Counted from the stretch's first letter, positions 14,849 through 45,622 are shown. The stretch is DNA of 64,000 nucleotides from Sulfuricurvum sp. 17-40-25 (GCA_002282015.1 NCIJ01000001.1:124001-188000); one strand, 5' to 3'. Program-made: numbers and translations. The notes: generated by a model from the letters alone, not told the origin.

Positions 14849-15340
14849 GTGCGATTTTCAATATTGATAGTTTTCATGCTACTACTAGCAGGATGTTCAA
14901 GTGTGACGTTAACAACATCGGATGCAAAATTAGACAAGACACGTGTAATGGCGGTTGATTCGTTTGCAAATTATACAGAGGTTCCAATGGCGGGCTACAG
15001 AGCAGCAGCTATGGTTGATGCTGCATTACTGAATCGTGGCTATACCAGCAAAACGATTTATACATCTCCTAATGAAGAGTATTTAAAACCAAATGCACCC
15101 TTGAGCGATAGACTCGATAGAGCTCGAAAAATATCTGCAGATTATCTCATGAGTGGAGAGGTCATAGAGTGGAGATACAAGACAGGGATTGATGGCGAAC
15201 CCGCAGTAAGTCTTGTAATACGGGTGTATGACGTCAATACGGGGGCAATTGTGTACAGTGCAACCGCGAGTAAAAGTGGGTTTGGCTATAGTTCAGTGGG
15301 TGTTGCAGCTCAAGATGTCATCACATCTATGATCCATTAA
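14849..15340 (+). CDS. pelC: Outer-membrane lipoprotein PelC
   Basis: 163 residues when started at GTG 14849, which has an AAGGAG site 5 bases upstream and gives a classic lipoprotein signal ending in lipobox LLAGC (Cys16). An ATG at 14825 would add eight polar residues and abuts the galE stop, without its own clear site. In P. aeruginosa PelC forms a dodecameric ring under the outer membrane that guides Pel to PelB. The body (VMAVDSFANYTEVPMAGYRAA, then DYLMSGEVIEWRYK) fits the PelC fold. It precedes pelD by 10 bases. Confidence 0.85.
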   Translation: MRFSILIVFMLLLAGCSSVTLTTSDAKLDKTRVMAVDSFANYTEVPMAGYRAAAMVDAALLNRGYTSKTIYTSPNEEYLKPNAPLSDRLDRARKISADYLMSGEVIEWRYKTGIDGEPAVSLVIRVYDVNTGAIVYSATASKSGFGYSSVGVAAQDVITSMIH

Positions 15341-15350
15341 TATTTTAACT

Positions 15351-16628
15351 ATGGATTGGCTACGTATTGTTTTTTTAGGGTTATTAAAAAAGCGTTTAGA
15401 AACTCTGACCGATTATATCATTTGGATTGAAATTGTTGGCTGGACTACCGCTTTTATATTGTTTGGCTACTTACTGCGACCAACTGATCCTTTCTTTTTC
15501 ACTGGAAGATATGATGTTTTTTTAATTTTTATGACCATATTCACCCTTTTTTATGGGACAGTTGTCGGAATTATTATGCTAGGTATCTCTTATGTGGTAT
15601 CCCTCAACTTTTATACCGATATTCCTTATATGGAAATAATGGAATACCTTGTTTTTGTTCTCATTTATGGAGAATTCCATTATCATTGGAATCGAAAAAT
15701 AAATATTGCTAATGAAAACAATTTGTACACCAGAAATCGTCTTAGAATGTTAGGGAATGCTTTTTTCTTGGCAAAAATATCGCACGATCAGCTTGAAAAA
15801 ACCTATATCATGAAACCAATGAGCTTACGAGGAGCTATCGTTTCTTTGGCGGATGAGCCTAAAGAGAATCGGACAACCTTGTTGCTTGAGCGATTGTCTC
15901 ATTATTATGGGATTGAGAATGCTGCCTATTACCACGTTGAGGGAGAGAGTGCGATAAAGCTAGCAGAGATTGGTGATAGTACCATTGTGTATGATAAAAA
16001 TCATCCTATGATTGATAAAATGCTTAGCAGTCTTGAATCTATTTACGTGTCCGATATAGAGACGCATGATCGGGATAGTTGGTTGGCTGTTTTACCTTCT
16101 TTTAATTATTTAAATGAGTTACGAGGTGTTTTGATACTTAAAAAAATGCCATTTATGACGTTTAATATTGATAATATTTTAAAAATAGAAGTGATTCTTA
16201 ACTATTTTGAGCAAGAAGAGAATCAACATATTGATCTTCATGTTCCCCAGACATACCGAGTTTGTAAGGATGGTTTTTTATTTGAGCTTATGAGACTCCT
16301 TAAACTAAAACGTAGCTATGGTGTTCAAAGTTCATTATTTGCTATTCATGCTACTAAACCAGCATCGATTGGTATGTTGGACCATTTTCTTCTAAACAGC
16401 CTTCGTGTTTTAGATCTCTTTGAACGTATTGAAATCACCAATGACGAGTGTTACTATATTTTTCTTTTACCGTTTGAAAATATTAGTGGTACGTTAAGTT
16501 TTGAGAAGCGTATTATGAACAAAGTTCACTTGAGTGATGACACCAACCTCCAAAGAATGGTAGTTAGTATTGATGCAGCAAATCAGATTTTTGATTGGAT
16601 TTCAACATCAAGCCAGCGTAGATCATGA
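15351..16628 (+). CDS. pelD: c-di-GMP-binding inner-membrane protein PelD
   Basis: 425 residues: four hydrophobic segments (about 25-125), a GAF-like domain (about 150-280) and a degenerate GGDEF domain (about 290-415). The inhibitory-site motif R352-VL-D355 is intact and sits five residues before the remnant of the active site, which reads EITNDEC instead of GGDEF. This is the P. aeruginosa PelD arrangement, where the domain binds c-di-GMP and switches on polymer synthesis but cannot make it. It overlaps pelE by 4 bases (ATGA). The pel operon should thus respond post-translationally to c-di-GMP. Confidence 0.85.
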   Translation: MDWLRIVFLGLLKKRLETLTDYIIWIEIVGWTTAFILFGYLLRPTDPFFFTGRYDVFLIFMTIFTLFYGTVVGIIMLGISYVVSLNFYTDIPYMEIMEYLVFVLIYGEFHYHWNRKINIANENNLYTRNRLRMLGNAFFLAKISHDQLEKTYIMKPMSLRGAIVSLADEPKENRTTLLLERLSHYYGIENAAYYHVEGESAIKLAEIGDSTIVYDKNHPMIDKMLSSLESIYVSDIETHDRDSWLAVLPSFNYLNELRGVLILKKMPFMTFNIDNILKIEVILNYFEQEENQHIDLHVPQTYRVCKDGFLFELMRLLKLKRSYGVQSSLFAIHATKPASIGMLDHFLLNSLRVLDLFERIEITNDECYYIFLLPFENISGTLSFEKRIMNKVHLSDDTNLQRMVVSIDAANQIFDWISTSSQRRS

Positions 16629-17629
16629 TTTATATACTCCTTTGTATTCTTAGTTTTTTGCTGGAACTGTATGCTTTAGGGGCTGGGGAAATTACCCATT
16701 TTGCACAATGGAATATCTATAGATATTTCTTGTTACACACAATAGCATCTGCCTTGTTGTCATGGTGTCAGGTGAAATGGCTAGAGTCACGATATCCCGA
16801 TGAGCGATTAAAAGTTTTTCTTTTTTTCTTTGTTTTCATGGTAGTCACCTTAAGTTTTGGGCTTCTTTTGAGCTTGTTAATTGTCATATTTGGTCTACTG
16901 CATGTAAAAGTGATTGAAAAAACTCAAACACTAGACAAAATTAGCTTTAATGCTATTAGTGATGATTTTCCAGAAATTAAAAGAATCTTTGGAGAAGCAT
17001 CTCTGGCACATACCTTGAATCAATCCGATGCGAGAATGCAAACAAAAATTAAAGTTTTATCTGCATTAAGTGAGATTAATACTCCTGAAGCAATTACCCT
17101 TATCAAGCAGGCACTTTCAGATGAAAGTGATGAAGTTCGGCTTTATAGTTTTAGTTTAATAGACCATTTTGAAAAAGAGCTAAACAAAAAAATCCATATC
17201 GCTTTGGATGCACTTCATCAAAGCAAAGAAATTTCACACAAGGTTCAAAGGTATAAAACATTAGCCTTATTGTATTGGGATATGCTTTATTATGAATTGG
17301 CCGATGATAATCTCAAACACTATTTTTTAACTAAGATACAATCCATTATGAGTGAGAGTCTACTTTTGGCACCACATGATGAAGATTTAATTATGCTTCA
17401 GGGAAGGCTTTATTTATTTAATGGTGATATTAATAATGCAGAACTTTTATTACATGATACTCTTGAATACAGTGGCACCTATACGAAAGCTATATGTTCA
17501 TATTTAGCGGAAATTGCATTTTTAAAACAAGAATATTGGAAAATTCCTTCATTAATTGCACTTTATCCCAGCGCTTCTTTGGATTTAAAAATGTATGGAA
17601 TGCAGCAAGTGTGGAATCATAAAAAATGA
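16625..17629 (+). CDS. pelE: Inner-membrane Pel synthase-complex protein PelE
   Basis: 334 residues: hydrophobic segments at about 1-20, 30-50 and 62-90, then a cytoplasmic helical-repeat region (from about 110) with TPR-like pairs near the end (LLLAPHDEDLIMLQGRLYLFNGDINNAE). In P. aeruginosa PelE joins PelD, PelF and PelG in the membrane complex. Sequence conservation of PelE is low and the call leans on size, layout and position between pelD and pelF, with 4-base overlaps on both sides. Confidence 0.75.
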   Translation: MIYILLCILSFLLELYALGAGEITHFAQWNIYRYFLLHTIASALLSWCQVKWLESRYPDERLKVFLFFFVFMVVTLSFGLLLSLLIVIFGLLHVKVIEKTQTLDKISFNAISDDFPEIKRIFGEASLAHTLNQSDARMQTKIKVLSALSEINTPEAITLIKQALSDESDEVRLYSFSLIDHFEKELNKKIHIALDALHQSKEISHKVQRYKTLALLYWDMLYYELADDNLKHYFLTKIQSIMSESLLLAPHDEDLIMLQGRLYLFNGDINNAELLLHDTLEYSGTYTKAICSYLAEIAFLKQEYWKIPSLIALYPSASLDLKMYGMQQVWNHKK

Positions 17630-19146
17630 AATTTCTAATTGATAAACATAATAAAGTGGATATTTTATTTATCGCCGAGGGGACGTATCCCTATGTGAGA
17701 GGTGGAGTTTCTTCGTGGATTCACCAGCTTATTAGCGGTTTAAAGCATTATCGATTTGGTGTTGTTTTTATGGGAAGCCGTCCTGAGGATTATGGAGAAA
17801 TTGCGTATGAATTCCCTGAAAACCTTGATCTTTTGGTGGTTTCGTATTTATTTGACGATCCATCAAGACCAAAGATTCAATCCATAGAGGGTGATCAAAA
17901 GAGCATTGAAAACGTAGAGTACATTCACGAATGGTTTAAAAATCATGAGGACTCTTTACCTCAAGAATTGCAAAAGCTTAATTTTTATACGGATAAAGTG
18001 AGTGAATCTTTCTTTTTGTATGCTCATCGTTCATGGGAATACATTGAAAAAAAATACAATGAACGTGCTTCTGATATCCCTTTTATTGATTATTTTTGGA
18101 CGGTTAGAAATATTCATAGCCCAATTTGGGTTATAGCGAGAATAGCAAAATTGTTAGAAGGGCGTTGTACTACGGTCCATTCTCCATCAACCGGATATGC
18201 TGGTTTTGCTGGGGCACTGTTGGCGTTTAACGACAAGATACATTACGTCCTTACGGAACATGGGATTTATACTAAAGAGCGTAAAATCGACTTGCTGACT
18301 AATGATTTTTTAAGTTATCGAAAATTTGATATTTTTAAAAAACCGGATGAAAATGATGTTATAAAAGAGATGTGGGTTCGTTTTTTTGAGGGGATAGGTC
18401 GATTTAGTTACAAAAGAGCTGATGTTATCTTATCATTGTTTGCTGGTGCTCAATCGGTTCAGATTGTCTATGGAGCTAGTGAGTCAAAGTGTCGTGTTGT
18501 TCCCAATGGTGTTGATGTTAAAAAACTAGGAAGTGTGATTGAGAAGCGCCCTTTTATTATTCCTAATGTTATTACTTTGATAGGACGAGTGGTCTCGATC
18601 AAAGATATAAAAACATTCATTCGTGCTATTCGTATTGTTCAGCGAGATATCCCCGATATTCAAGGGTGGATTGTAGGTCCAACTGATGAAGAAGAGCAAT
18701 ATGCACAAGAATGCATGGATATGATTCAAACGTTCAGTTTGAGTGAGAATATTAAATTTTTAGGATTTCAAAATATTTTGGATGTACTTCCTAAGAGTGG
18801 GATATTAACATTGACCTCTATTAGTGAGGGGATGCCGTTAGTGGTCTTGGAAGGGTTTGCGGCTGGATTACCTGCGGTGACGACCGATGTTGGCTCATGT
18901 AAAGAACTCATTTACGGTGGATTAGGTGAGGAAGATCTGGCTCTTGGGGCGGCAGGGGAAGTGGTGTCTATTGCTAACCCAAGTGCACTTGCAAAAGCTT
19001 ATTTAAAACTATTACAAAATAGCGACTACTGGCATGCTTGTCAACAAACAGCTCTGGCTCGGGTCAATCAATATTATACGCAAGAATTATTCTTTAAAAC
19101 CTATGATGAAATTTATCAAAAAGCGATGCAACCGTGGCAGGAATAG
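17626..19146 (+). CDS. pelF: Pel polysaccharide glycosyltransferase PelF
   Basis: 506-residue GT4-type glycosyltransferase, cytoplasmic. The PelF N-terminus has AEGTYPYVRGGVSSW (17-31). R321 and K326 (RVVSIK) and the E401-x7-E409 pair (EGMPLVVLE) match residues reported as essential in P. aeruginosa PelF. It polymerises UDP-activated GalNAc-type sugars under control of PelD. It overlaps pelE by 4 and pelG by 13 bases. Confidence 0.93.
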   Translation: MKFLIDKHNKVDILFIAEGTYPYVRGGVSSWIHQLISGLKHYRFGVVFMGSRPEDYGEIAYEFPENLDLLVVSYLFDDPSRPKIQSIEGDQKSIENVEYIHEWFKNHEDSLPQELQKLNFYTDKVSESFFLYAHRSWEYIEKKYNERASDIPFIDYFWTVRNIHSPIWVIARIAKLLEGRCTTVHSPSTGYAGFAGALLAFNDKIHYVLTEHGIYTKERKIDLLTNDFLSYRKFDIFKKPDENDVIKEMWVRFFEGIGRFSYKRADVILSLFAGAQSVQIVYGASESKCRVVPNGVDVKKLGSVIEKRPFIIPNVITLIGRVVSIKDIKTFIRAIRIVQRDIPDIQGWIVGPTDEEEQYAQECMDMIQTFSLSENIKFLGFQNILDVLPKSGILTLTSISEGMPLVVLEGFAAGLPAVTTDVGSCKELIYGGLGEEDLALGAAGEVVSIANPSALAKAYLKLLQNSDYWHACQQTALARVNQYYTQELFFKTYDEIYQKAMQPWQE

Positions 19147-20510
19147 GATTTCAATTAAAAAAAATTGCAAATAGAGGAACGCTTACTTCATTGCTCAAGG
19201 CGTATGGCTATTCAGCAGCTCTCAGTAGTGGTCCTTGGGTTATCTCGATGATTGTAATTTTTTTAATTGGATTCATAAATATTTATTTTTTTCATTCAGG
19301 TGCAAATACAATTAAATTTCAAATTATCGTTACTTATGCCCTGATGATGGCATCCAGTCTTATTTTTACAGGTTTTTTACAGCTTCCTTTTACTCGTTAC
19401 GTTGCAGACAGGGTATTTGAGGGGAGAGAAGATAAAGTATTGCCTAACTACTTTGGACTGTTATTTATAATCTCATTATTGGGTTTCTTTATTGCATTTC
19501 CTTTGAGTCAATGGTTGTTTTATGATCAAAGTGACTTTTTTGTCACTTTAGTTGTTTCTACTTTTTTGGTTCTAAGTTGTGTATGGATTTCTAATATTTT
19601 AGCGGTAAGTCTAAGGTTTTACAAATATGTCATATTGGCATATTTTATTTCGTATATTATAATCTTATTCCTCTCTTTATTACTGCAACCTTATGGAATA
19701 GAAGGGCTACTGTTTTCTTTTTTAGCTGGCAATCTTCTTTTGTTATTGTTACTGATGATTGCGATTGTAAAACACTACCCATCTCCCTATTTCATACAGT
19801 TTGATATGTTTAAAAAACAAAATTTTTATTGGACATTAGCTATTGCTGGATTGGCGTATAATTTGGGAGTTTGGGCAGATAAAATTATATTTTGGTATCA
19901 CCCTTTGACCGGGACAAATGTTATTGGTCACCTTAATAGCTCTATGGTGTATGATATGCCTATATTTCTGGCATATTTGTCTATTATTCCGGGAATGGCA
20001 GTTTTCTTCTATCGTTTAGAGGTTGAGTTTGCTGAACAATATGACTTATACTACTCTTCGGTTCGTCAAGGAGGGGTGTTGGATCAAATTGATCGTCATC
20101 GAAATGGGATGATTGATGTTGTGCGAACCTCGATTCGTGAAATTTTAACGATTCAGGGAATTTTTAATATTGGAATTTTAATCATCTCTGAACCTCTCTT
20201 TGAGGCACTTAAGATGCCCAAATTATTTTTGCCCTTATTTTATATTGATCTCATCGGAACACAAATACAGCTTGGGTTCATGTCTATTTTAGCATTTTTA
20301 TTTTACATTGATCGGCGCAAGGAAGCAATGATTCTTTCGATTTTATTTTTTGTTGGTAATGTACTTTTGACATTTGTTTCGATTGAACTTGGACCGTATT
20401 TTTTTGGTTATGGATTTGCTGTTTCACTGCTTATTGTATTCGTCGGAAGTTTATTTTATCTTCGAAAAGTTCTAAAAAGGTTAAACTATGAAACATTCAT
20501 GTTGCAATAG
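19134..20510 (+). CDS. pelG: Inner-membrane Pel export protein PelG
   Basis: 458 residues, about twelve hydrophobic segments, no soluble domain. The N-terminus AGIGFQLKKIANRGTLTSLLKAYGYSAALSSGPWV is typical of PelG, an MOP/Wzx-type membrane protein thought to carry the polymer across the inner membrane with PelD and PelE. The start is GTG at 19134, inside the end of pelF. The stop lies 23 bases after the start of pelA. Confidence 0.92.
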   Translation: MAGIGFQLKKIANRGTLTSLLKAYGYSAALSSGPWVISMIVIFLIGFINIYFFHSGANTIKFQIIVTYALMMASSLIFTGFLQLPFTRYVADRVFEGREDKVLPNYFGLLFIISLLGFFIAFPLSQWLFYDQSDFFVTLVVSTFLVLSCVWISNILAVSLRFYKYVILAYFISYIIILFLSLLLQPYGIEGLLFSFLAGNLLLLLLLMIAIVKHYPSPYFIQFDMFKKQNFYWTLAIAGLAYNLGVWADKIIFWYHPLTGTNVIGHLNSSMVYDMPIFLAYLSIIPGMAVFFYRLEVEFAEQYDLYYSSVRQGGVLDQIDRHRNGMIDVVRTSIREILTIQGIFNIGILIISEPLFEALKMPKLFLPLFYIDLIGTQIQLGFMSILAFLFYIDRRKEAMILSILFFVGNVLLTFVSIELGPYFFGYGFAVSLLIVFVGSLFYLRKVLKRLNYETFMLQ

Positions 20511-23220
20511 TATGGGAATAAAACTATTTCTATTACTCCTCTTAGTCACATCTTTACAGGCTAAAAAGAGTCATGATATCGCACTTTATTATGGGACAAA
20601 TCCCAGTCAAACATTTATGCAATATTTTGATTGGATTGTAGTTGATCCTGACGTGATTAATCCTGCTGTTAAAAAACGATTTGAGAAAAAATTATTTGCT
20701 TATGTCAGTGTTGGAGAAATCGAACCATGGAGAAAATCAAATGCTCCTTATGATAAAAAATGGATTATAGCCAGCAATAAAGCATGGGATTCGAAAATTG
20801 CCGATTATACACAACTCGATTATCGGAACTATGTGTTGGCACGGATGAAACGTTTATATGCACACGGATATAGAGGATTTTTTTTAGATACGTTGGATGC
20901 TCCATTTGGCTCAATAGCACCCAAAGATGAGATAGTGTATAAAGAAGGACTTTCAGAGCTGCTTGTTCAGATACGTACAACATTTCCAGACGCTAAGATT
21001 ATTGCCAATCGTGGATTTGAAGTTCAAAAGACATTATGTTTAAATGTGGATGCTGTAGCAGCTGAATCTCTGTATCAAAAAATTGACACCAAAGACTTTA
21101 CTTACAAAGAGGTTTCAAAAGAGGACCGAGACTGGCTACGAAATCAGCTGAAAGCTGTTCAAAACTGTAATCTTGAAGCAATTTCGATTGATTACGTTTC
21201 CCCTAAAAATAAAAAGCTTCAAAAAGAAACGGTCGATAAAATTGTATCTGAGGGTTTTACCCCTTATGTGACCGATTATAAACTTTTGACTCATGGGATG
21301 GGGGAGAAAGCTCTTTTAAGTAGAGAAGTGTTGATCTTATATGATGGTTCTACATTAACTAAAGACGATATCATTCGTTCAGAACCTCATCTTATTCTTT
21401 CGACACCTTTGGAGTATTTGGGATATATTCCAAAACTACATGATATTAGAGAAGGCTTTCCTGAACTTTCACAAGAAAATTTAGCCGGTATTATTGTATG
21501 GGATGGTGGAGAAAATGAAACAGAGCTTTTTAGCTTTATTGAAGAAGTAATACATAGTAATATCAAAGTTCTTTTTTTAAATAGTTTTGGTTTTACTATA
21601 ACACCACAAAAAGCCAAGTTCCTTGGTTTATCAATGATTGACAATCCTAGTCACCTACTTGATCCTATTACGATAACTCATCGTGATGCGATAGTAGGTT
21701 ATGAAACACAACCTTTTTTGAAAAATCAATCACCTATCATTGAAGTAGTTGAAGGAAACCCACTGATTAGGGCACAAAATAGTTTGGGACAACCATTTGT
21801 CCCTGCCGCACTCACGCCATGGGGTGGTTATGCATTGGATCAAAGCTTTATGATCTCCTCTAGTAATACTTCGATATGGGCAATTGACCCAGTTGAATTA
21901 TTTAGACTCGCTTTACAGTTACCTCCCATTCCTGCTCCTAATGTGACAACTGAAAACGGCAGTCGACTATGGATGACACATGTTGACGGGGACGGTATGA
22001 TTGAAAAAACACGCTTTAAACCTGATGAATATGCTGTCGAAACCCTTTATAATGAAGTTTTTAAACAGTATAAAATACCTCAGTCTGTATCAGTTATTGT
22101 AGGTGAAGTTGCTCCAAACGGTATTGCACCACTATTATCCAATCGAATGATAAAGGGTGTGAAAGAGATATTCAAACTCCCTTATGTAGAGCCTGCTAGT
22201 CACTCTTTTTCACATCCCTTTCAGTGGAAAAAAATTGTTGAAGCCCAAGGAGATTCGGAGGGATATAATCTGCCAATCAAAGGTTATACTTTTTTGCTGA
22301 ATACGGAACTCCAAGGAAGTATTGACTATATTAATACCAATTTAACACCACCATCAAAAAATGCATCTATGTTATTTTGGACAGGCGGTTGTAATCCACC
22401 CGAAGAAGTGCTAAGAGAAGCCCAAGAGGCAAATATTCTTACAATCAATGGTGGTGATACAACAATCCAAAAAAATGCTCCTTGGCTATCTCTTGTCTCT
22501 CCGATTAGCATAAAAAAAGGAGATTACCGACAAATCTTAGCGCCAAACCAAAATGAAAATGTTTACACTGGAAATTGGATTTTTCCAAAATGGGGATACA
22601 AGCGTGTCATTGAAACCTTTGAAATGACGGATAAGCCAAGACGTTACAAACCTATTGATCTTTATTATCACTTTTATTCTGCATCATTGAGTTCCTCGTT
22701 AGCATCATTAAAAAGTGTCTATGATTATGTACTTACACAAAAGACGCTTCCGTTGTATATTTCAGACTATATTCGGATTGCTGATGATTTTTACAATACT
22801 TCTATTGCTACTATTGAGAATGGATGGGAAATCCGAAATGCAGGAGAGTTAAAAACATTAAGGCTTCCAAAAGATAATCACTACCCAGATTTTACTAAGA
22901 GTGATGGGATTGTTGGATTTTATGATGATGCTGATGGACGTTATATCCATCTTAATGGACAGGGTGTTTATACTTTAGTCATGAGTGACAAAGTTCCTCT
23001 GGTCCCTTATCTTATCCAAAGTAATGGTCGTGTTATAACGTCTCGCAATAGTACATTAGTACTTAAGAGTTATGTTCCTTTTCAATCTAAATGGAACCTC
23101 CCTTCTGGATGCGAAATAAAAACGAATCAAAAAATGACCATTTCAAAAATCAAAGAGGGTGTAGTTAGTGTTACGTCCAGCTTTCCAACTGAGGTAAAAT
23201 TTGAATTTATTTGCCACTAA
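20488..23220 (+). CDS. pelA: Periplasmic Pel hydrolase/deacetylase PelA
   Basis: 910 residues with signal peptide (1-25, ending LQA). The N-terminal glycoside hydrolase domain holds FFLDTLDAP (131-139) and E193 (VAAESLY), matching the catalytic Glu218 of P. aeruginosa. The deacetylase domain has D500/D502 (HVDGDG) and H572/H576 (HSFSH), each exactly 28 residues before the Pseudomonas catalytic set, so both activities look intact. PelA cleaves GalNAc-rich polymer and removes acetyl groups, giving Pel its positive charge. The start at 20488, inside pelG, is preferred because it has an AAGG site; the ATG at 20512 has none. It overlaps pelB1 by 20 bases. Confidence 0.92.
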   Translation: MKHSCCNSMGIKLFLLLLLVTSLQAKKSHDIALYYGTNPSQTFMQYFDWIVVDPDVINPAVKKRFEKKLFAYVSVGEIEPWRKSNAPYDKKWIIASNKAWDSKIADYTQLDYRNYVLARMKRLYAHGYRGFFLDTLDAPFGSIAPKDEIVYKEGLSELLVQIRTTFPDAKIIANRGFEVQKTLCLNVDAVAAESLYQKIDTKDFTYKEVSKEDRDWLRNQLKAVQNCNLEAISIDYVSPKNKKLQKETVDKIVSEGFTPYVTDYKLLTHGMGEKALLSREVLILYDGSTLTKDDIIRSEPHLILSTPLEYLGYIPKLHDIREGFPELSQENLAGIIVWDGGENETELFSFIEEVIHSNIKVLFLNSFGFTITPQKAKFLGLSMIDNPSHLLDPITITHRDAIVGYETQPFLKNQSPIIEVVEGNPLIRAQNSLGQPFVPAALTPWGGYALDQSFMISSSNTSIWAIDPVELFRLALQLPPIPAPNVTTENGSRLWMTHVDGDGMIEKTRFKPDEYAVETLYNEVFKQYKIPQSVSVIVGEVAPNGIAPLLSNRMIKGVKEIFKLPYVEPASHSFSHPFQWKKIVEAQGDSEGYNLPIKGYTFLLNTELQGSIDYINTNLTPPSKNASMLFWTGGCNPPEEVLREAQEANILTINGGDTTIQKNAPWLSLVSPISIKKGDYRQILAPNQNENVYTGNWIFPKWGYKRVIETFEMTDKPRRYKPIDLYYHFYSASLSSSLASLKSVYDYVLTQKTLPLYISDYIRIADDFYNTSIATIENGWEIRNAGELKTLRLPKDNHYPDFTKSDGIVGFYDDADGRYIHLNGQGVYTLVMSDKVPLVPYLIQSNGRVITSRNSTLVLKSYVPFQSKWNLPSGCEIKTNQKMTISKIKEGVVSVTSSFPTEVKFEFICH

Positions 23221-24160
23221 ACAACAAAAAGAGATCGTTAGCAAAAAGGAACTCCTTGGGATTTTTGTTCTATTTACCTTTTTGCTAGTGATGTTTTTCC
23301 CAAAAGATAAGATTGTAAGTTTGGTAGCTCAAGAGGGATCCAACTATGATTTAAGTACAAAATATCTCATTAATATCATCCACTCCTATCCAGATGACAA
23401 TCAACCTAAAATAATACTCGTGAATATGTATCTTAAGATGCAGCGTTTTGATGATGCCAGTAAGCTTTTAAAAACATTTTCGGCAGATTCACACTATGTA
23501 AATCGCATTGATCATTTGAAATACGATATTGCCAAAGCACATTTTTTTAACAATACATCTTCTTTGAATAAAGCTGTTTTAATTTCTGATATGGAAAATA
23601 TTCTCTACGGTATGATCCCTCATGCAAAGCGAGTTGAAGATTTTGAATTTATTCGGATGCAAGCACAACGGATGAATTTTCAAAAATTAAAAGTGATGGT
23701 TGAAATAGAGATGATAAAGCAAGACCTTTTAAATGTCAGTGAAGTATTTAAAATCTATAAAGATGCTCTGTATTTAAAAATGGATAAACAAGCCAATACG
23801 ATATTGGAACATGAATTACATCATAGCACTGATCCGAAGTGGCGTCTTTTATTAGCACAAAAAGAATTTAATACTAAAAACTATGCAGCTTCTGTAAAAA
23901 ATTTTGAATTTGCTTTTAAACATGCCAAAACACAAAAAGAGAAAGTGAAGATTTTTAAAGAACTTATCAATTTTCATATGGCGCTTAAACATAAAAAGGA
24001 TATTTTAACGTTGATTGAAAAAAATGAATCATTGATAATGAATAACGACGAGCTTATCAAAATAGTTATTTCATATTATTTAGGCAATGACATGCTCGCT
24101 GATGCTAGAAATTTTAGTCTGAAACTGTTTAAGTATCACCACAAGCCACTTGGAGAATAA
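23201..24160 (+). CDS. Membrane-anchored TPR protein, N-terminal half of a split PelB
   Basis: 319 residues: one membrane anchor (about 18-34) followed by TPR-type helical repeats (from about 45), with no barrel. The TTG start at 23201 has a GAGG site 6 bases upstream and overlaps pelA by 20 bases. P. aeruginosa PelB is one 1,193-residue chain: N-terminal anchor, many TPRs that bind PelA, and a C-terminal barrel. Here the anchor and first repeats are a separate gene, followed at once (TAA then ATG) by a second gene with further repeats and barrel. It is intact, not a frameshift product, because the downstream gene has its own signal peptide and GGAG site. Confidence 0.75.
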   Translation: MNLFATKQQKEIVSKKELLGIFVLFTFLLVMFFPKDKIVSLVAQEGSNYDLSTKYLINIIHSYPDDNQPKIILVNMYLKMQRFDDASKLLKTFSADSHYVNRIDHLKYDIAKAHFFNNTSSLNKAVLISDMENILYGMIPHAKRVEDFEFIRMQAQRMNFQKLKVMVEIEMIKQDLLNVSEVFKIYKDALYLKMDKQANTILEHELHHSTDPKWRLLLAQKEFNTKNYAASVKNFEFAFKHAKTQKEKVKIFKELINFHMALKHKKDILTLIEKNESLIMNNDELIKIVISYYLGNDMLADARNFSLKLFKYHHKPLGE

Positions 24161-27100
24161 ATGCCTATTTTTATACTCATTATTTTGTTTAATTTTTTGG
24201 CATTTTCCAGTGAAAACATCTGCTATTCTGTACAACTAAATTCATTTAAAGATAATGATATTGCAGAAAATACGTTAAGTGTAGATGGGTATCCTCAAGA
24301 ATGTAGATGGTTACAGATTAATAAGGCGTATGCTCTTCGATGTGGCTGTGAAGATACTTATAAAAAAGCTGCTAATTTGGTTAAAAATTATAAAAATTAT
24401 GCATCCGATGCTCTTGTAGTATCTACGTCTAAATATCATTTTGAAGCTAATCAAACCACTTCTACTACGAAGAAGATATTCACACCTCCCATAGAAATTG
24501 CTACTGAGAAATATCTCTCAAGCAGTAACCTCTCTCCTGATGTTTTGAAGCTTACTTTGGATGTTATGCTTTACAGTGGAGACCTGACAAATGCTTATTT
24601 GATTGCAAAACGAGGAGTACAACGATTTAGCAATAATCCATGGTGGAATGAAAAAATGGCCCAAATATCATTATGGACTAATCGTCCATCTGAGGCTTTG
24701 GACTATTATGTCAAATCCTATCAGCTTCACTCATCGCAAGAGCTCCGTAAAAAAATACAAATGTTAGCAGCACAAACTGAAAACCAGAATATTGCTATTA
24801 CGATGTTAGAAGATTCTATACGTGAGGGGGAGGAAACCAATACGACAAAATTAGTGCAAGCTTACAAGGTCACTGGACGTATAGATGATGGTGTTCACTT
24901 TTTTAATAGCTTAAATACCAAACATCCTTCAGCTGATTTTCAAAAAAATATCATCGATCTTTTATTGGTTAATCAAAACTATGACAAAGCAGAAGAGCGA
25001 TATGTTATTTTTATTAGACAATACGGTAATTTAGATACCTTTGACCTGGAATTTGCAAAAGCAGCTTTTTTACAAAAGAATTTACCTAAAGCATTAATCT
25101 ATTTACAGCGTAATGCTACGACTGTCTCTCATGATAATAAAAAATATTGGGAATTTTATATTGATATGTTATGGTTGAATCGTGATTTTGATACCTTATA
25201 TACGGTTTTAACAAAGCGTTGGGAACTAGATCTACTTCGGGAATATGATCGGGAAATACTAGGGACTGTAGCTTCAAATCGAGATAAAAAGGTGGCCGCT
25301 AAAATCGCATTAGAATCATTTACGAAAGATACAAAAGTATATGGCTTTTTCAAATTTGCGTATATTTCCAAAGAACTACACGACACAGTATCTATTTTAG
25401 AAGCATTATCAAAGCTTACCCCTACACAAGAAAAACTGCTCGAAACTCAATCTGAATACTGGATTATTTTAGCAGATCTTGAAATGGAAAAAAAGGATGA
25501 CGAAAAAGCGAATGCTTTTTATCTTAAAGCATTGAGTTTGAATCCAAACAGCGTAGCAGTCAATCAAACATATGGATGGTTTCTTCTTGATAGTGGAAAG
25601 TTGTCTTTGTTGCGCACATGGTTAGCTAAAATAGATAATTTACAAACCAATCGTAGTGATTATGCCATGATTGCAGCGACAGCTTATTTACGTTTACAAA
25701 ACAGTAAAAAATCAAAAATGTATTTTGATATGATTGCGCACGACATCAATACAGATCCTCAACTTTATCTTTTGTACAGTGATATATTGACGCTTATGGG
25801 TGAAAAAGAAGCCAGCAATAAATATCAGTTTATCGCATGGAAAAAATATGCTTTAATGGTACAAAAAGAGGGCAAGAAGGGGCTAAATACTGAAGGATTG
25901 CAAGCTTATTTACGCCTTGGGATGAAGTTTGCACCAGAAAAAAGTTTTGAATGGACAGCCATGGCACATGAGTATCTAACTCAAGATCAGTATCAAAACT
26001 TTTTATTAGGTGTTTCTACCATGGAATCTAACGAAGAAGCGACTTTACATGTTAAGCATTTTCTTCGTAAAAGTGAACCGTGGTTGGACTTTTATTTAGC
26101 GTTTGTTCAAAATGACACGGAACAAATGAACGCAACCTTGCAAAAGCATTTTGATGAACTTCCAATTGCAGACAGAGTGCAAGCTTCCTATCAATCAGGT
26201 AATAGACCATTGGGCGAAGAGCTTGGTTTTCAAGGGCTGGAGGAAAATCCTATGAATGATGATTTGGCAGGCTTAATGCATATTAAATGGATGGAAAATG
26301 CTAATAAATTTAGAATTCAAAATGACTATCAAGACAGGGATGGATTATTTGGAAAACATGTTTCTGTGTTGGCAACGCATGAGATTTCAAAAGGATGGGA
26401 ACTTCAAGCAAATGGACGAAAAAGATGGCAAAACAGTGATGAAACAGATACATATAAAAAAATTCCAGATGATGAAGTATATTCTGTTGGTTTAACAAAA
26501 ACATTTGATTCCTTTAGCGTATTGACGGCTTTAGGGAGACATGAAAATATTGATGACTTTTTGTTTGGAGAACTTTCAGGTGCATATACTATGGGAAGAT
26601 TGATCTTATCCGGGGGATATTTTTACCACAAAGATGCGGACGAGAGCACCTACACCATGTTGGCTGGATACAAAAACTCAATTGAGTTGGAATCCACCTA
26701 TCAGCTTACTGGCTCATTACAGTTAGCATTGAGTACACAGCAACATACCTATTTTGGTTCGGATGGTGTTGAATTTGCTAAAGGCTCGCAATATTCACTT
26801 TCTACCATTAAAAGATTTCGCAGTGCCTATCCTGATTTAGGGATTCAAGGGGCGCTCAATTATTATAGCTACAGAGAAGATACACTCAAAAAAGGGGTTA
26901 TTCTCGATGTTCTTCCTGCAAATGATATTGCAATATTACCCAAAGACTATCTACAACCAAGCATTAATGTATTTTATGGATTATCAGGCAAAGAGATTGT
27001 AACAAAACGCTGGCGACCTTATGGGATGGCTGGTTTGTCATATGATAACAATACTAATGACATAGGATATAACTTTTCAGCTGGGATTTGCGGAATGCTT

Positions 27101-27208
27101 ATCGGGCAAGATGCTCTATGTTTTGAGGGAGAATATGCTTCATCCTATAATGGTATTGCAGGTAAAACCCAAAAATATTCATTGATTTATAATCTATATG
27201 GATGGTAA
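24161..27208 (+). CDS. pelB: TPR and outer-membrane barrel protein, C-terminal half of a split PelB, with SPOR-like N-terminus
   Basis: 1,015 residues: signal peptide (1-17), a SPOR-like module (about 20-97: CYSVQLNSFKD ... YALRCGC ... DALVVST), a linker, many TPR-type repeats (about 110-700) and a C-terminal stretch of alternating strands (about 715-1015) ending in Trp, as expected for an outer-membrane barrel. In Pel systems the PelB barrel exports the polymer. SPOR modules bind denuded peptidoglycan, which would place the periplasmic part near the cell wall; this module is not part of Pseudomonas PelB as far as I know. It is the last operon gene; no strong terminator follows before the convergent HIT gene. 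Confidence 0.8.
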   Translation: MPIFILIILFNFLAFSSENICYSVQLNSFKDNDIAENTLSVDGYPQECRWLQINKAYALRCGCEDTYKKAANLVKNYKNYASDALVVSTSKYHFEANQTTSTTKKIFTPPIEIATEKYLSSSNLSPDVLKLTLDVMLYSGDLTNAYLIAKRGVQRFSNNPWWNEKMAQISLWTNRPSEALDYYVKSYQLHSSQELRKKIQMLAAQTENQNIAITMLEDSIREGEETNTTKLVQAYKVTGRIDDGVHFFNSLNTKHPSADFQKNIIDLLLVNQNYDKAEERYVIFIRQYGNLDTFDLEFAKAAFLQKNLPKALIYLQRNATTVSHDNKKYWEFYIDMLWLNRDFDTLYTVLTKRWELDLLREYDREILGTVASNRDKKVAAKIALESFTKDTKVYGFFKFAYISKELHDTVSILEALSKLTPTQEKLLETQSEYWIILADLEMEKKDDEKANAFYLKALSLNPNSVAVNQTYGWFLLDSGKLSLLRTWLAKIDNLQTNRSDYAMIAATAYLRLQNSKKSKMYFDMIAHDINTDPQLYLLYSDILTLMGEKEASNKYQFIAWKKYALMVQKEGKKGLNTEGLQAYLRLGMKFAPEKSFEWTAMAHEYLTQDQYQNFLLGVSTMESNEEATLHVKHFLRKSEPWLDFYLAFVQNDTEQMNATLQKHFDELPIADRVQASYQSGNRPLGEELGFQGLEENPMNDDLAGLMHIKWMENANKFRIQNDYQDRDGLFGKHVSVLATHEISKGWELQANGRKRWQNSDETDTYKKIPDDEVYSVGLTKTFDSFSVLTALGRHENIDDFLFGELSGAYTMGRLILSGGYFYHKDADESTYTMLAGYKNSIELESTYQLTGSLQLALSTQQHTYFGSDGVEFAKGSQYSLSTIKRFRSAYPDLGIQGALNYYSYREDTLKKGVILDVLPANDIAILPKDYLQPSINVFYGLSGKEIVTKRWRPYGMAGLSYDNNTNDIGYNFSAGICGMLIGQDALCFEGEYASSYNGIAGKTQKYSLIYNLYGW

Positions 27209-41313: not shown

Positions 41314-42090
41314 ATGACAAATATGAAAGGCAAAACACTGGTAATAACCGGAGCCACAAAAGGAATCGGTCAAGCAATTGCTGAAAAATTTGCACAAAAT
41401 GGTGTTAATATCGCCTTTACATACAATTCAAATGCCGAGACAGCAGCCGTATTAGCACAAGGACTCGAAGAGAAATACGGTATCAAAGCACGTGCGTATC
41501 CCCTAAACATTTTAGAACCCGATGAATTTAAACCACTTTTTGAAGCGATTGATGCTGATTTTGACCGTGTCGATTTTTTCGTCAGCAATGCGATGATCTA
41601 TGGCCGTCCTGTTGTCGGCGGATACGGCAAGTTCATGCGCCTCAAACCACGTGGGCTTAACAACATTTACACCGCAACCGTCAATGCCTTCGTCGTAGGA
41701 ACCCAAGAAGCGGCAAAACGTATGGAAAAAGTAGGCGGCGGCGCGGTTGTCACGATGTCAAGTACGGGCAATCTTATCTACATCGAAAACTATGCGGGTC
41801 ACGGAACCAATAAAGCCGCAGTAGAAGCGATGAGCCGTTATGCAGCTGTTGAACTAGGAGAAATGAATATCCGTGTCAATGCTGTTTCAGGCGGGCCTAT
41901 CGATACCGATGCCCTCAAAGCGTTTACCAACTACGAAGAGGTCAAAGCTGAGACCATTAGACGCTCTGCTATGAACCGTATGGGTTCTCCTAACGATATT
42001 GCAGGTGCCGTTTATTTTCTCTGTACTGGGGAAGCCAGCTGGATTACCGGTCAAACGATCGTTGTTGATGGTGGAACCACTTTTAGATAA
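41314..42090 (+). CDS. fabL: Enoyl-ACP reductase of the FabL type (SDR family)
   Basis: 258-residue SDR. NAD(P)-binding TGATKGIG (12-19); the active site is Y160-x6-K167 (ENYAGHGTNK), the spacing found in enoyl-ACP reductases rather than the usual Y-x3-K. The segments SSTGNLIYIENY and NAVSGGPIDTDALKAF closely resemble Bacillus FabL, the NADPH-dependent, triclosan-tolerant reductase of fatty acid synthesis. C. jejuni has an SDR at the same place (Cj0807). FabL rather than FabI or a general SDR is judged from these motifs by eye, so biochemistry remains open. Confidence 0.7.
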   Translation: MTNMKGKTLVITGATKGIGQAIAEKFAQNGVNIAFTYNSNAETAAVLAQGLEEKYGIKARAYPLNILEPDEFKPLFEAIDADFDRVDFFVSNAMIYGRPVVGGYGKFMRLKPRGLNNIYTATVNAFVVGTQEAAKRMEKVGGGAVVTMSSTGNLIYIENYAGHGTNKAAVEAMSRYAAVELGEMNIRVNAVSGGPIDTDALKAFTNYEEVKAETIRRSAMNRMGSPNDIAGAVYFLCTGEASWITGQTIVVDGGTTFR

Positions 42091-42101
42091 AAATACGCAA
42101 A

Positions 42102-42136
42102 CAATATGTCAGGAGCAGTCAACTCCTCTTTATCCA
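42102..42136. terminator. Weak hairpin after fabL
   Basis: AGGAG (42111-42115) pairs with CTCCT (42123-42127) and is flanked by an outer AATATG/CATATT pair. It lies between the fabL-like stop and the convergent CopZ-family gene. The stem is short with internal loops, so terminator strength is doubtful. Confidence 0.3.
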
Positions 42137-42160
42137 TATTAAAAAAGTAAAAACTTTAAT

Positions 42161-42676
42161 CTAAACGTTAGAGAATCCTAAATCCTTCTGAATTTCTTTT
42201 ACAGCCTTGCCTACATCACCCAAGCAACATCCGCCACTTGGGTTAAGTGTCTCGCATGAACAGCCAGGGTTTTCCATCTTAGCTGTGATCTCCTCAAGAG
42301 CTACTGTTTCACCCTTTTCTGTAAGCTCTTTTTTTATCTTCTCTTTACTCCACTCAAAACAGTAACATACCGTTGCGGGATTCGCACCCACTTTGAGACC
42401 CACCACCACACTTAGATCTTTTTGTGTGAGGATCTCTTTATCTCTAAAATAGACTACCTCGCATGAGGGTGTTTTACAGTAGTAAAAGCCCTCAAAACAG
42501 CTAAGTTCTTTTTTTGCTTCGCCTGTTAGCAGGTGTTCTACTGTCTTTGCTAAAACTCCATTGGCCTTTTCATGACATTCAAGACATTCTTCCTTTCCTT
42601 TTGGTTGAGGTGCGCAACAATTTTGTGTACTACAGCTCTGAGTGTTTTCTTCTTTCTTTTTAAGTACGCTTAACAT
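42161..42676 (-). CDS. CopZ-family metal/iron-sulfur protein
   Basis: 171 residues from the ATG at 42674-42676, which has an AAAGG site 7 bases upstream; the longer start at 42712 has none. Cysteine-rich throughout: CSTQNCC and CLECH near the start, the CKTPSCEVVYF motif mid-protein, VCYCFEWSKEKI and the closing CSCETLNPSGGCCLGDVG. This pattern matches the N-terminal domain of Archaeoglobus CopZ, which holds zinc and a [2Fe-2S] cluster and is tied to copper handling. No HMA domain is fused; a separate HMA protein is encoded divergently at 42787. Likely role: metal binding or reduction in the cytoplasm. Confidence 0.75.
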   Translation of the reverse strand: MLSVLKKKEENTQSCSTQNCCAPQPKGKEECLECHEKANGVLAKTVEHLLTGEAKKELSCFEGFYYCKTPSCEVVYFRDKEILTQKDLSVVVGLKVGANPATVCYCFEWSKEKIKKELTEKGETVALEEITAKMENPGCSCETLNPSGGCCLGDVGKAVKEIQKDLGFSNV

Positions 42677-42725
42677 GACGTAACCTTTATTTTGAACTTC
42701 CGATGTCATCATATCTACTTATTTA

Positions 42726-42765
42726 TTTAATACTAAATTAATTAATTAATTGCTAAAGTATTTAA
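42726..42765. promoter_or_regulatory. AT-rich imperfect inverted repeat, candidate ArsR operator
   Basis: The 74-base gap between the divergent CopZ-family and HMA genes holds arms TTTAATACT (42726-42734) and AGTATTTAA (42757-42765), one mismatch, around an ATTAATTAATTAATT core. ArsR/SmtB regulators bind AT-rich dyads of this kind, and an ArsR gene is two genes away. Promoters for both directions must also lie here. Confidence 0.4.
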
Positions 42766-42786
42766 CTAATTACAAAAGGAAAAATC

Positions 42787-43056
42787 ATGATAAAGATAGC
42801 GTTCATCTTCTTAATAGTAGGTTATGTTGCTTTCGCTCAAAGTTTAGTGAAGTTTAAAATTGGGGGCATGTCTTGTAACAGCTGTGCCAATGGGATAAAT
42901 TCAAATCTTTCAAAGGACTTTCCAAAATATACTATGGATGTAGACTTTGATAGTGCTACCTTAACAGCACAATCAAAAGACGGTACGAATATAGATGTTA
43001 AAAAAGTGCAAAAGGCTTTTCAAACTATGGGCTATAAAGCTACTCTTATTAAGTAA
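42787..43056 (+). CDS. Periplasmic heavy-metal-associated (HMA) protein, MerP-like
   Basis: 89 residues: signal peptide (about 1-18, ending AFAQS), then a single HMA domain with GGMSCNSCA (27-35), the CxxC site that binds soft metals, and the closing hydrophobic GYKATLI. MerP carries Hg(II) and similar proteins carry Cu(I) in the periplasm; no MerT is present. It is the first gene of the plus-strand cassette, with an AAAAGGA site. Confidence 0.8.
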   Translation: MIKIAFIFLIVGYVAFAQSLVKFKIGGMSCNSCANGINSNLSKDFPKYTMDVDFDSATLTAQSKDGTNIDVKKVQKAFQTMGYKATLIK

Positions 43057-43070
43057 AAAAGGTGGAAGTG

Positions 43071-43442
43071 ATGGATGAAGCATTAGCGTGTTGTCGTCAA
43101 GAAGTTGATGAAAACACTTTGGTATTAGCGCAAAAAGTACTCGATAAAAAAGGAGTGTGGTTGCAAGAGTGCAGTGATGGTTTTGCGCTTTTAGGAAATA
43201 AAGTTCGACTGGATATTGTCTATTTACTTTTAAATTTTCCAAGACTATGTGTTTGTGATTTTTGTGATTTGCTCAAAATGTCTGCACCTGCCGTATCGCA
43301 ACACCTTCGTAAACTCAAAGACGGTAGGCTTCTTTTCTCAAAAAAAGAGGGTGTTACTGTTTTTTATGCCGTAAGAGAAGAGATTAAACCGAAGCTGGCA
43401 AACTATTTAGATATCCCCTACAATAAGGATGAATCATGTTAA
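43071..43442 (+). CDS. ArsR/SmtB-family metal(loid)-sensing repressor
   Basis: 123 residues from ATG 43071, chosen over GTG 43062 because a GGTGG site precedes it. Winged helix: ALLGNKVRLDIVYLLL, then LCVCDFCDLLKMSAPAVSQHLRKLKDGRLL. The helix before the recognition helix carries C60, C62 and C65, the ArsR-type sensor position, and there are further cysteines at 7, 8, 34 and 123, so thiol ligation of As(III), Hg(II) or similar is expected. It probably represses its own operon via the AT-rich dyad upstream. Overlaps the next gene by 7 bases. Confidence 0.85.
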   Translation: MDEALACCRQEVDENTLVLAQKVLDKKGVWLQECSDGFALLGNKVRLDIVYLLLNFPRLCVCDFCDLLKMSAPAVSQHLRKLKDGRLLFSKKEGVTVFYAVREEIKPKLANYLDIPYNKDESC

Positions 43443-43699
43443 ATATAGAAGTCTTTTCAGCGCCAGGATGCGCTAAATGTGTTCATGCGAAAGCAATTTT
43501 AAAACAGATTGTTGCCGAACATGAAGAAGATGTTCTTTCATGGCGCGAAGTTGATATTATGACAGAAATGGATTATGCTATTGATGTTGGTGTTATGAGC
43601 ACCCCTGCTATTGCGATTAATGGGATTTTGGCCTTCACCTCTCTTCCTTCTTTGGACAAGTTGCGAAAAGAACTTGAGAAAAGGATACAAGATGCTTGA
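43436..43699 (+). CDS. Small thioredoxin-fold protein (CxxC)
   Basis: 87 residues, no signal peptide. Active site GCAKC (11-15) and the cis-Pro motif STPAIAING mark a glutaredoxin-like thioredoxin fold of the small MTH895/TM0996 kind. It sits between an ArsR regulator and a double CcdA-like membrane protein, overlapping both (7 and 8 bases). The natural reading is that it exchanges electrons with the membrane protein, but it could also deliver or reduce the metal ligand. Confidence 0.8.
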   Translation: MLNIEVFSAPGCAKCVHAKAILKQIVAEHEEDVLSWREVDIMTEMDYAIDVGVMSTPAIAINGILAFTSLPSLDKLRKELEKRIQDA

Positions 43700-44990
43700 G
43701 CTAGGCCTAGCACTTCTCATGGGTCTTTTAGCTTTTTTAGAACCTTGCACAATAGCCACTTATAGCATTAATTCAGTTCGACTGCATCATGCTACTACTT
43801 CCGAAAAAACAGTGGCTATCGTCCAATTATTTATACTAAAATTTTTATTTTTATTAGTTCTATTTAGTCTTCTGATTTATCTTTTTGATGCAATGACAAT
43901 CTCAAACCTTTTTATTATTTATACTCTTTTAGTCTTTGCCTCAATGTTTTTTTTAGGAAAATTTATCTATTTTCATATTCCACATTTCGAATTTTTTCGA
44001 CTTTTACCCAATTCAGAAAAGTTCTCTCAATCATTGAAACTTTCATTAAGCATTCCAGCTTGTAACATCCCAATTATTATTTTGCTCTCTTTTCTGGTGA
44101 TTAATACACACTCATATGGCATCGCAGCATGGTCGGCGGCACTCTTTACTTTTTTTTACATTCTCCCTACCCTTTATTTTATACTAAGAGGATTCAGTAG
44201 TGTATCACGTCAGTTTTTAACCTCATTAGGGGGATTTATGCCGACATTTACCTCGGTACTGTTTTTATTTATATCCCTATATCTTGTAGCTGGGGAACTT
44301 TCAATTGATTTATATCAATTAAAACAAGCACTTAGCAAACCTACGACTTATGCAATCATTATTGGTTTTATTACGGGTTTTGTTTTTAGTTTTAACCCTG
44401 TCTCTTTCTCTGCAATCCCCATGATGTTAGCCTATGTTGTTAAGGGAAAGGACAAGGACAGAGCGCTTATTTTAGGTACATCTTTTATTGCAGGTATGCT
44501 GGTGACGCATATTCTATTAGGCGCAATTGCCGCACTAGGAGGAGAGTGGGTCAAGGGTATCATGGGAAGACATTGGGGTTTGATATTAGGACCTGCACTC
44601 ATTATCTTAGGGCTTATCTGGAGTGGTATAATTACTATTAGATTGCCTTGGATAAGCTCCAAGGGTTATAAGGTAGCCAGTATTGGTGGCGCTTTTTTAT
44701 TAGCCATTCCTTTTTCTATTGCTGTTTGTCCTTTTTGTACTCCAGCCTTATTGGTGATGCTTACTTCCAGTGCCGCTATTGGATCTATCGGTTTTGGAAT
44801 TGCTCTTTTGGGTGCTTTTGCTTTGGGTCGGAGTATTCCGATGGCCATCGGTGCGATTAGCATGTCACAGCTGGAAAAAATGCGTATCTTTAATCTGAAT
44901 CAAAAGTATTTTGAATATCTTGCGTCTATCATCCTAATTTTTGTCGGTCTCTATATGCTTAACGAATACTATTTTATTATAGGATATTAG
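43692..44990 (+). CDS. Tandem CcdA/DsbD-like membrane protein, possible thiol-electron or metal(loid) carrier
   Basis: 432 residues, about twelve hydrophobic segments forming two CcdA-like halves. The first half keeps both CcdA cysteines, C19 (LEPCTIA) and C124 (IPACNIP). In the second half the first position is NPV (235-237) instead of xPC, while the other has become a membrane CPFC pair (346-349). CcdA/DsbD pass electrons from cytoplasmic thioredoxin to the periplasm; a related family (ArsG) occurs in arsenical-resistance operons. The true start is ATG 43692, overlapping the thioredoxin-like stop; a longer upstream extension only shadows that gene. Substrate and direction are unknown. Confidence 0.7.
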   Translation: MLELGLALLMGLLAFLEPCTIATYSINSVRLHHATTSEKTVAIVQLFILKFLFLLVLFSLLIYLFDAMTISNLFIIYTLLVFASMFFLGKFIYFHIPHFEFFRLLPNSEKFSQSLKLSLSIPACNIPIIILLSFLVINTHSYGIAAWSAALFTFFYILPTLYFILRGFSSVSRQFLTSLGGFMPTFTSVLFLFISLYLVAGELSIDLYQLKQALSKPTTYAIIIGFITGFVFSFNPVSFSAIPMMLAYVVKGKDKDRALILGTSFIAGMLVTHILLGAIAALGGEWVKGIMGRHWGLILGPALIILGLIWSGIITIRLPWISSKGYKVASIGGAFLLAIPFSIAVCPFCTPALLVMLTSSAAIGSIGFGIALLGAFALGRSIPMAIGAISMSQLEKMRIFNLNQKYFEYLASIILIFVGLYMLNEYYFIIGY

Positions 44991-45023
44991 ACTATTTTCA
45001 TAATTTGGTGTCAGCATTTTAGC

Positions 45024-45029
45024 TATAAT
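45024..45029 (+). promoter_or_regulatory. Candidate -10 box (TATAAT) for pgsA-rseP-yggS
   Basis: TATAAT lies 39 bases before the pgsA TTG in the 77-base gap after the metal cassette, so pgsA need not depend on cassette transcription. Confidence 0.5.
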
Positions 45030-45067
45030 CACGAATATTAAATAGATTCATAGTCAAAAGGAAAATT

Positions 45068-45622
45068 TTGTTCAATATACCCAATCTCCTAGCCCTTTCT
45101 CGCTTGCTCATCGCTCCGGTGATGTTTTGGGTCATTCTCAATCCTCAAGTTTTTACCGACAACGGCTGGCATATCAGCTGGAGCTACTACACTGCTTCTT
45201 TACTCTTTGTCCTTGCTAGTGTGACCGATTTTTTTGATGGATATATTGCTCGTGAACTGGATCAAATCACCATTGTGGGGCAAATCCTCGACCCACTTGC
45301 CGATAAGATGCTTACATTGGCGGCCTTCTTAGGCCTGATGATGAACGGCGATGCTTCTGCTTGGGCTATTTATATCATCATAGGGCGTGAACTGTTTATC
45401 ACCGGCCTTCGCACTCTATCACTCTCTGAGGGGATCGATATCAGCGCATCATGGGCAGGGAAAGTCAAAACCGTTGTGCAGATGATTGCCATAGGCTTTT
45501 TATTAATGCATTGGATGGGTGGAGAGCTATTACTGTGGATTGCTGTTGCGATCACTCTGTACTCTGGCGGAGAATATCTTGCCGGATTCACAAAAGCATA
45601 CCGAATGAAGGAAACCGTATGA
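45068..45622 (+). CDS. pgsA: CDP-diacylglycerol-glycerol-3-phosphate 3-phosphatidyltransferase
   Basis: 184 residues, about five membrane spans. The CDP-alcohol phosphotransferase motif DG-x2-AR-x8-G-x3-D-x3-D is complete (DGYIAR ... GQILDPLAD). It makes phosphatidylglycerophosphate, the phosphatidylglycerol precursor. The start is TTG at 45068 with an AAAGGAAAA site; the family N-terminus FNIPNLLALSRL begins right there. Overlaps rseP by 4 bases. Confidence 0.93.
   Translation: MFNIPNLLALSRLLIAPVMFWVILNPQVFTDNGWHISWSYYTASLLFVLASVTDFFDGYIARELDQITIVGQILDPLADKMLTLAAFLGLMMNGDASAWAIYIIIGRELFITGLRTLSLSEGIDISASWAGKVKTVVQMIAIGFLLMHWMGGELLLWIAVAITLYSGGEYLAGFTKAYRMKETV

Follow-up and report, generated by a model that had tools for sequence, protein, structure and literature searches.

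What do five adjacent genes for metal-binding and thiol-redox proteins accomplish when neither MerT and MerA, nor ArsB and ArsC, nor a copper ATPase is encoded among them? The question is raised by a stretch of 64,000 nucleotides, hereafter the window, that comprises bases 124001-188000 of contig C1 in the 2.3-Mb draft genome (50 contigs) of Sulfuricurvum sp. 17-40-25, a member of the Campylobacterota (Epsilonproteobacteria).

Organization of the cassette

ORF calls on the window sequence confirmed that all five genes are present at 42161-44990 and are grouped around an AT-rich region, as had been proposed in the original prediction. The gene for a CopZ-like protein (42161-42712, minus strand) encodes 183 amino acids as called, and homologues indicate that the true start is probably M13, near position 42676. 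It is divergent from the other four genes across a common gap of 74 bp (42713-42786), in which only 11 positions are G or C (~85% A+T). On the plus strand follow the genes for a MerP-like periplasmic HMA protein (42787-43056; 89 amino acids, with a signal-peptide-like N-terminus and the motif GMSCNSC), an ArsR/SmtB-family repressor (P0003; 43071-43442; 123 amino acids), a small cytoplasmic thioredoxin-like protein carrying the motif GCAKC (Trx; 43436-43699; 87 amino acids), and a double CcdA-like membrane protein (dCcdA; 43692-44990; 432 amino acids). The ArsR ORF has an alternative in-frame start, a GTG at 43062. For dCcdA, the ATG at 43692 agrees with the homologues, and the start picked by the ORF listing was a TTG farther upstream, at 43611.

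Because the HMA, ArsR, Trx, and dCcdA genes share a strand and are separated by successive distances of 14, -7, and -8 bp, such that the Trx gene overlaps both of its neighbors, they appear to form a single operon. Inverted repeats occur in the control region at 42713-42786, but DNA of 85% A+T yields such repeats readily and they do not constitute evidence for an operator. An operator prediction on this basis was therefore dropped. No consensus sigma-70 site that clearly drives either side was found in the same 74 bp. By inspection, the HMA protein carries a signal peptide and Trx does not, and the two are therefore expected to reside on opposite sides of the inner membrane.

The cassette lies within a lineage-specific insertion

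The cassette is carried by a block of ~3 kb (42091-45067) located between an SDR gene (41314-42090) and pgsA (45068-45622). We read 29 loci from the same genus, and in 20 of these the SDR and pgsA genes are spaced by 0-140 bp with no cassette gene between them; in several loci the two genes overlap as ATGA (TTTAGATGA). Eight other loci have no SDR match adjoining pgsA within a stretch of 3-3.5 kb, and in the remaining one the SDR gene is ~1 kb from pgsA. Since these genes normally abut in relatives, we conclude that the block entered this lineage between them. The third-position GC content of the cassette genes (0.28-0.36) is mostly lower than that of their neighbors (0.33-0.50), which is a weak hint of foreign origin.

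The block was seen in no other sampled genome of the genus, and a 397-genome sample of the phylum yielded no further full-length dCcdA. Three partial matches of 21-37 bits in this sample probably reflect general CcdA/DsbD similarity. An ancestral locus of the genus was ruled out by the absence of dCcdA from the other relatives searched and by the empty site in most same-genus relatives.

Two further features of the region were recorded. An element (ACGTTAACACTG) is common to the SDR-pgsA gap of several relatives (at position 1409 in L165, 1400 in L167, 1399 in L170, and on the minus strand at 2114 in L168 and 2134 in L173), and CTCACGGCGC is found near it in some of them; insertions may have occurred repeatedly at this junction. 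Elsewhere, window positions 13820-27208, mostly AT-richer than their surroundings, hold a galE-like gene and, after it, ORFs similar to pelD, pelE, pelF, and pelG, as well as a PelA-like protein of 910 amino acids and large TPR/outer-membrane proteins. Judged by eye, this region looks like a Pel polysaccharide operon.

The soluble proteins and a possible link to thiophilic metals

The CopZ-like protein matches zf_CopZ (53.2 bits), passes the curated cut-off of NF047645 (107.1 versus 100), and matches PDB entry 2hu9 (E = 1e-12). It comprises the N-terminal zinc/[2Fe-2S] domain of the Archaeoglobus fulgidus CopZ kind and differs from that protein in that no C-terminal HMA domain is fused to it; the window encodes a separate, periplasmic HMA protein. 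Homologues with 63-73% identity occur across other Campylobacterota, where they adjoin copper ATPases, Cus-like RND pumps, ars genes, or a MerT-like/HMA pair. On these sequence comparisons, the CopZ-like protein is a putative general soft-metal partner. A second copy, 66% identical, is encoded on contig C33 of the window genome. That region (locus L044, 4740-19068) is a metal-resistance island, in which the copy has as neighbors two RND metal-efflux sets, an MntP-like protein, and a heavy-metal P-type ATPase.

The HMA protein narrowly exceeds the cut-off for the HMA domain (25.7 versus 24.8 bits). Its layout, a signal peptide followed by GMxCxxC, is MerP-like, and its best NCBIfam similarity is to the MerP part of a MerTP fusion (E = 8.7e-8), far below the cut-off. 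It is not a MerP equivalog (TIGR02052, 18.4 versus 92.55 bits).

The repressor is assigned to the ArsR family by NF033788 (67.2 versus a cut-off of 55) together with its cysteine site, which consists of a CC near the N-terminus and the sequence RLCVCDFC, whose CVCDFC lies in the sensing helix. Its best match among solved structures is Lmo1102 (9t6r), CadC also matches, and it is 45% identical to the ArsR that adjoins a CopZ-like gene in L055. We take the N-terminal cysteines and the VD after them to resemble CadC-type sensors, and the third cysteine of CVCDFC to resemble ArsR. With features of both kinds, the repressor may sense Cd/Pb/Hg/Bi or As/Sb. Trx exceeds the cut-off of Thioredoxin_3 (44.4 versus 24.8), scores below that of TIGR00411 (55.2 versus 92.75 bits), and matches PDB entry 1nho (E = 1e-12).

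The membrane protein appears to have two CcdA-like halves

The C-half of dCcdA (44307-44990), which contains FSFNP and CPFC (C346 and C349), matches DsbD_TM on its own with 42.5 bits against a gathering threshold of 27.1 (E = 5.9e-11) and also matches CcdA (PDB 5vkv, E = 9e-5). It is 46-50% identical to single-domain proteins on proteobacterial plasmids. For the N-half (43692-44306, 205 amino acids), we found neither a Pfam family nor a solved structure that matches, and its use as a query in the plasmid search returned nothing. In an alignment of 21 full-length dCcdA proteins with 42-62% identity, EPC, PAC, NP, and CPFC are invariant. The N-half cysteines of EPC (C19) and PAC (C124) occupy the motif positions expected for the two redox cysteines of CcdA. 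In the C-half, NPV and CPFC are found where the CcdA pair is expected, and the first cysteine is missing.

A comparison of the two halves with hhalign extends over 187 columns and places EPC over NPV and PACT over PFCT. The E value is 6e-4 but the probability is only 28%, and therefore duplication within dCcdA is likely rather than proven. Sequence comparison thus favors two CcdA-like halves, likely duplicated in one chain. The motif positions, the profile match of 28% probability, and a medium-confidence AlphaFold2 model (pLDDT 74, pTM 0.53) tentatively suggest a CcdA fold for the N-half. Separate genes, adjacent and 3-4 bp apart, encode the halves in Thiobacillus-type loci and in related ones, and several of the Thiobacillus-type loci adjoin merRTPA. 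A 561-amino acid ORF in L076 (5953-7638) combines dCcdA with a MerR-type regulator; the joining may be natural or an error of the assembly.

Relatives of dCcdA are accompanied by mercury-type partners

A scan of 84,980 genomes recovered 132 relatives of dCcdA, and neighbors were analyzed for 80 of these. Our script classified 24 of the 80 loci as fused, 15 as split, and 41 as C-half-only; 13 of the split loci are true splits, and the other two (L082 and L092) are merely interrupted by a contig end. The other loci with fused, full-length dCcdA number at least 24, and most are from Gammaproteobacteria. Beside these 24 we counted Trx (22), HMA/MerP-like proteins (21), MerT-like proteins (16), MerR-type regulators (16), porin-like proteins (8), CopZ-like proteins (7), ArsR (5), MerA (5), and no P-type ATPase, with the proviso that the counts derive from simple script-based ORF calling on draft contigs and that several relatives are close kin. 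The Trx of L074 is visible in the DNA and was left out of the count through the choice of frame. "MerT-like" denotes a class recognized with profiles seeded with true MerT and its relatives, and is so named because representative members score 20.4 and 18.0, under the Pfam cut-off of 32.9.

These partners are concentrated close to dCcdA. Within 2 kb, 22 Trx, 22 HMA, 19 MerR, and 14 MerT genes were found in 108 kb, whereas beyond 3.5 kb the same classes are nearly gone (4 in 79 kb). This near/far comparison and the recurrence of the set across genomes rule out a chance grouping of the five genes. A 4-bp overlap joins the Trx gene to the dCcdA gene in most loci.

The nearest relative, with 62% identity, is from another member of the Campylobacterota (L059). 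The order on its contig is CopZ-MerC-MerA-MerT-HMA (MerP-like)-porin-Trx-dCcdA; MerA (550.5 versus a cut-off of 454.45) and MerC both score over their cut-offs, Trx is 67% identical to that of the window, and the CopZ-like protein, interrupted by the contig end, is 54% identical. All five kinds found in the window recur in L063, together with MerT-like and MerR proteins (MerT-CopZ-ArsR-MerR-Trx-dCcdA-HMA). The kinds present in L069 are those of the window with the regulator swapped (HMA-Trx-dCcdA-CopZ-MerR), and neither MerT nor MerA was found in that locus. From these compositions we conclude that the window holds one arrangement of a wider repertoire. The co-occurrence in other genomes on which the original prediction depended was therefore found, with MerT-like and MerR-type genes as added neighbors.

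The MerR-type regulators beside dCcdA mostly keep two of the three MerR cysteines, both of them C-terminal. Where MerR has Cys and CueR has Ser (S77), six of the 16 regulators have Cys and the others have Arg or Lys.

C-half-only relatives on plasmids form MerR-Trx-CcdA-MerT-MerP or MerR-Trx-CcdA-GDCCVxC operons, as in Nitrobacter hamburgensis plasmid 2 and Afipia pOC167. As in the window, Trx is followed by the CcdA C-half (38-44% and 46-50% identity, respectively). These operons differ from the cassette in the absence of the N-half, in their MerR-family regulator, and in the frequent presence of a P-type ATPase and an MFS protein. Heavy-metal P-type ATPases occur beside 23 of the 41 C-half-only relatives, and the subfamily models that match include copper.

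Core mercury and arsenic genes in the window genome

Inside the block, the reported lack of MerT/MerA, ArsB/ArsC, and a copper ATPase is correct; an ArsB-like gene lies in the same genome upstream of the window, ~82 kb from its start. Family searches of the whole draft genome detected neither MerA nor MerC. The best MerA match (300.6 bits versus a cut-off of 454.45) lacks the C-terminal Cys pair, lies beside a lipoate-synthase-like gene, and looks like a dihydrolipoamide dehydrogenase. No MerT-like protein was found in the draft genome with the MerT of L059 as query, which recovered a positive control of 62% identity in genome G428; this query replaced the PF02411 profile, which gave no signal even in controls.

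Comparison with known systems and alternative explanations

The cassette shares with mer operons (MerR-MerT-MerP-MerA, MerC) a MerP-like periplasmic HMA protein, the closest dCcdA relative lies on one contig with MerA, MerC, and MerT-like genes, and related loci adjoin merRTPA. It differs in the three mer proteins that were not detected in the genome, in an ArsR-family regulator in place of MerR, and in the addition of Trx, a two-half CcdA, and the CopZ-like protein. A precedent, by annotation only, is provided by actinobacterial proteins with CcdA and TrxA regions that are annotated as mercury transporters and by an ArsR-region protein annotated as a mer repressor (PMC12195606).

Could the genes instead handle copper or silver, with the CopZ-like and HMA proteins shuttling Cu(I) and Trx-dCcdA keeping their cysteines reduced? 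The copper ATPases and Cus-like RND pumps beside Campylobacterota CopZ-like genes speak for this reading, as do the heavy-metal ATPase and two RND systems beside the second copy on C33 and the MerR-type regulators near dCcdA, whose CueR and ZntR scores are good but stay under the cut-offs. We nevertheless consider it rather unlikely, as a P-type ATPase is near none of the 24 fused genes, the regulators have Arg, Lys, or Cys instead of Ser at the CueR S77 position, and MerT-like, MerC, and MerA partners point to Hg. Arsenical efflux of the ArsEFG kind, which would assign the role of ArsE to Trx, that of an ArsG-like permease to the C-half, and As(III) sensing to the repressor, is a doubtful candidate. 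A small Trx beside a DsbD/CcdA-like permease is common to both systems, ArsG (an ars-operon efflux transporter according to PMC9144182) is the best NCBIfam match of the C-half (43.5 bits, E = 2e-11), Trx resembles the ArsE family (TIGR00412, 39.9 bits), and the likeness of CVCDFC to the ArsR As(III) site would fit. An ars-type cluster in a same-family genome (L057, 8997-12572) contains such a pair, an ArsE-like Trx over the cut-off and a CcdA-like permease, with genes resembling ArsP, ArsC, and ArsB. These similarities are distant, however: the equivalog cut-offs are 200 for ArsG and 62 for ArsE. No cassette gene was recognized as ArsF, the repressor resembles CadC too, and among the 24 fused loci, where MerT/MerP-like partners dominate, ArsC-like genes occur only in L066 and L109 and ArsP-like genes only in L070 and L109. 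To our knowledge, an HMA protein has no role in ars systems.

Ordinary periplasmic thiol redox, such as cytochrome c maturation or disulfide control with metal genes nearby by happenstance, would account for the C-half as a CcdA/DsbD family member and for the generic fold of Trx. It strikes us as improbable given the specific clustering with metal proteins over several phyla. The cassette has no periplasmic thioredoxin partner of the CcmG/DsbC type, and dCcdA departs from CcdA/DsbD transporters in its apparent duplication and in the divergent cysteine pattern of its C-half.

On balance, we favor the interpretation that the block is a horizontally acquired, MerA-less resistance module of the mercury (thiophilic-metal) type, in which Trx is predicted to supply electrons via dCcdA to the HMA protein. 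The ArsR-family sensor would leave the DNA once its cysteines bind a soft metal ion. Cytoplasmic Trx would hand electrons to C19/C124 of the N-half, which would carry them across the inner membrane to the CxxC of the periplasmic HMA protein, either keeping it reduced and metal-competent or freeing metal from it. The C-half, through CPFC, might take the metal or pass electrons onward, and the CopZ-like Fe-S/Zn protein would bind metal in the cytoplasm. In most relatives the path would be completed by a MerT-like importer and sometimes by MerA.

The predicted substrate class is most likely Hg(II), with Cu(I)/Ag(I) or As(III)/Sb(III) as less likely candidates. Against mercury stands the presence of MerA near only five of the 24 fused copies, and, with no MerA or MerT-like protein in the window genome, Hg(II) would have no reductive sink. 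The ATPases beside many C-half-only relatives, the regulators that mostly keep two of the three MerR cysteines, and the weak CcdA similarity of the N-half also weigh against the favored interpretation. Because both MerA and a MerT-like protein are missing, the most likely role of the module here is to protect or buffer thiols, not to convert Hg(II) to Hg(0). Less likely, in our estimation, is a bolder reading of fused dCcdA as a redox-driven transporter, in which the N-half would relay Trx electrons and the CPFC of the C-half would move thiol-bound soft metal. If true, reduction and transport would be coupled in one protein, and we found no description of such metal handling.

The original prediction of a redox-coupled, thiol-metal gene set stands insofar as the set recurs and joins thiol redox with metal-binding proteins. 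Its supposed isolation from mer systems does not, since MerT-like and MerP-like proteins are among the commonest dCcdA partners elsewhere. Nor is a wholly new route favored, given the nearest relative on a contig with MerA, MerC, MerT-like, and MerP-like genes; the data are better explained by a new variant of mercury-type metal handling, or by an accessory arm of it. As to whether the set is a known operon family, the literature searched on mer, CcdA, and Trx operons yielded no paper that describes it.

Implications

Bacterial mercury resistance as described consists of Hg(II) import followed by cytoplasmic reduction. The gene set recurs, is apparently undescribed, and elsewhere lies in or beside mercury-resistance operons. 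A conserved Trx-dCcdA arm with MerP/MerT-like partners, often with no MerA near, would mean that cells spend reducing power across the membrane to keep metal-handling thiols functional. This prediction offers a testable function for a protein half that has no Pfam family, and also for many metal-island genes that are annotated merely as "cytochrome c biogenesis protein CcdA" or "thioredoxin family protein."
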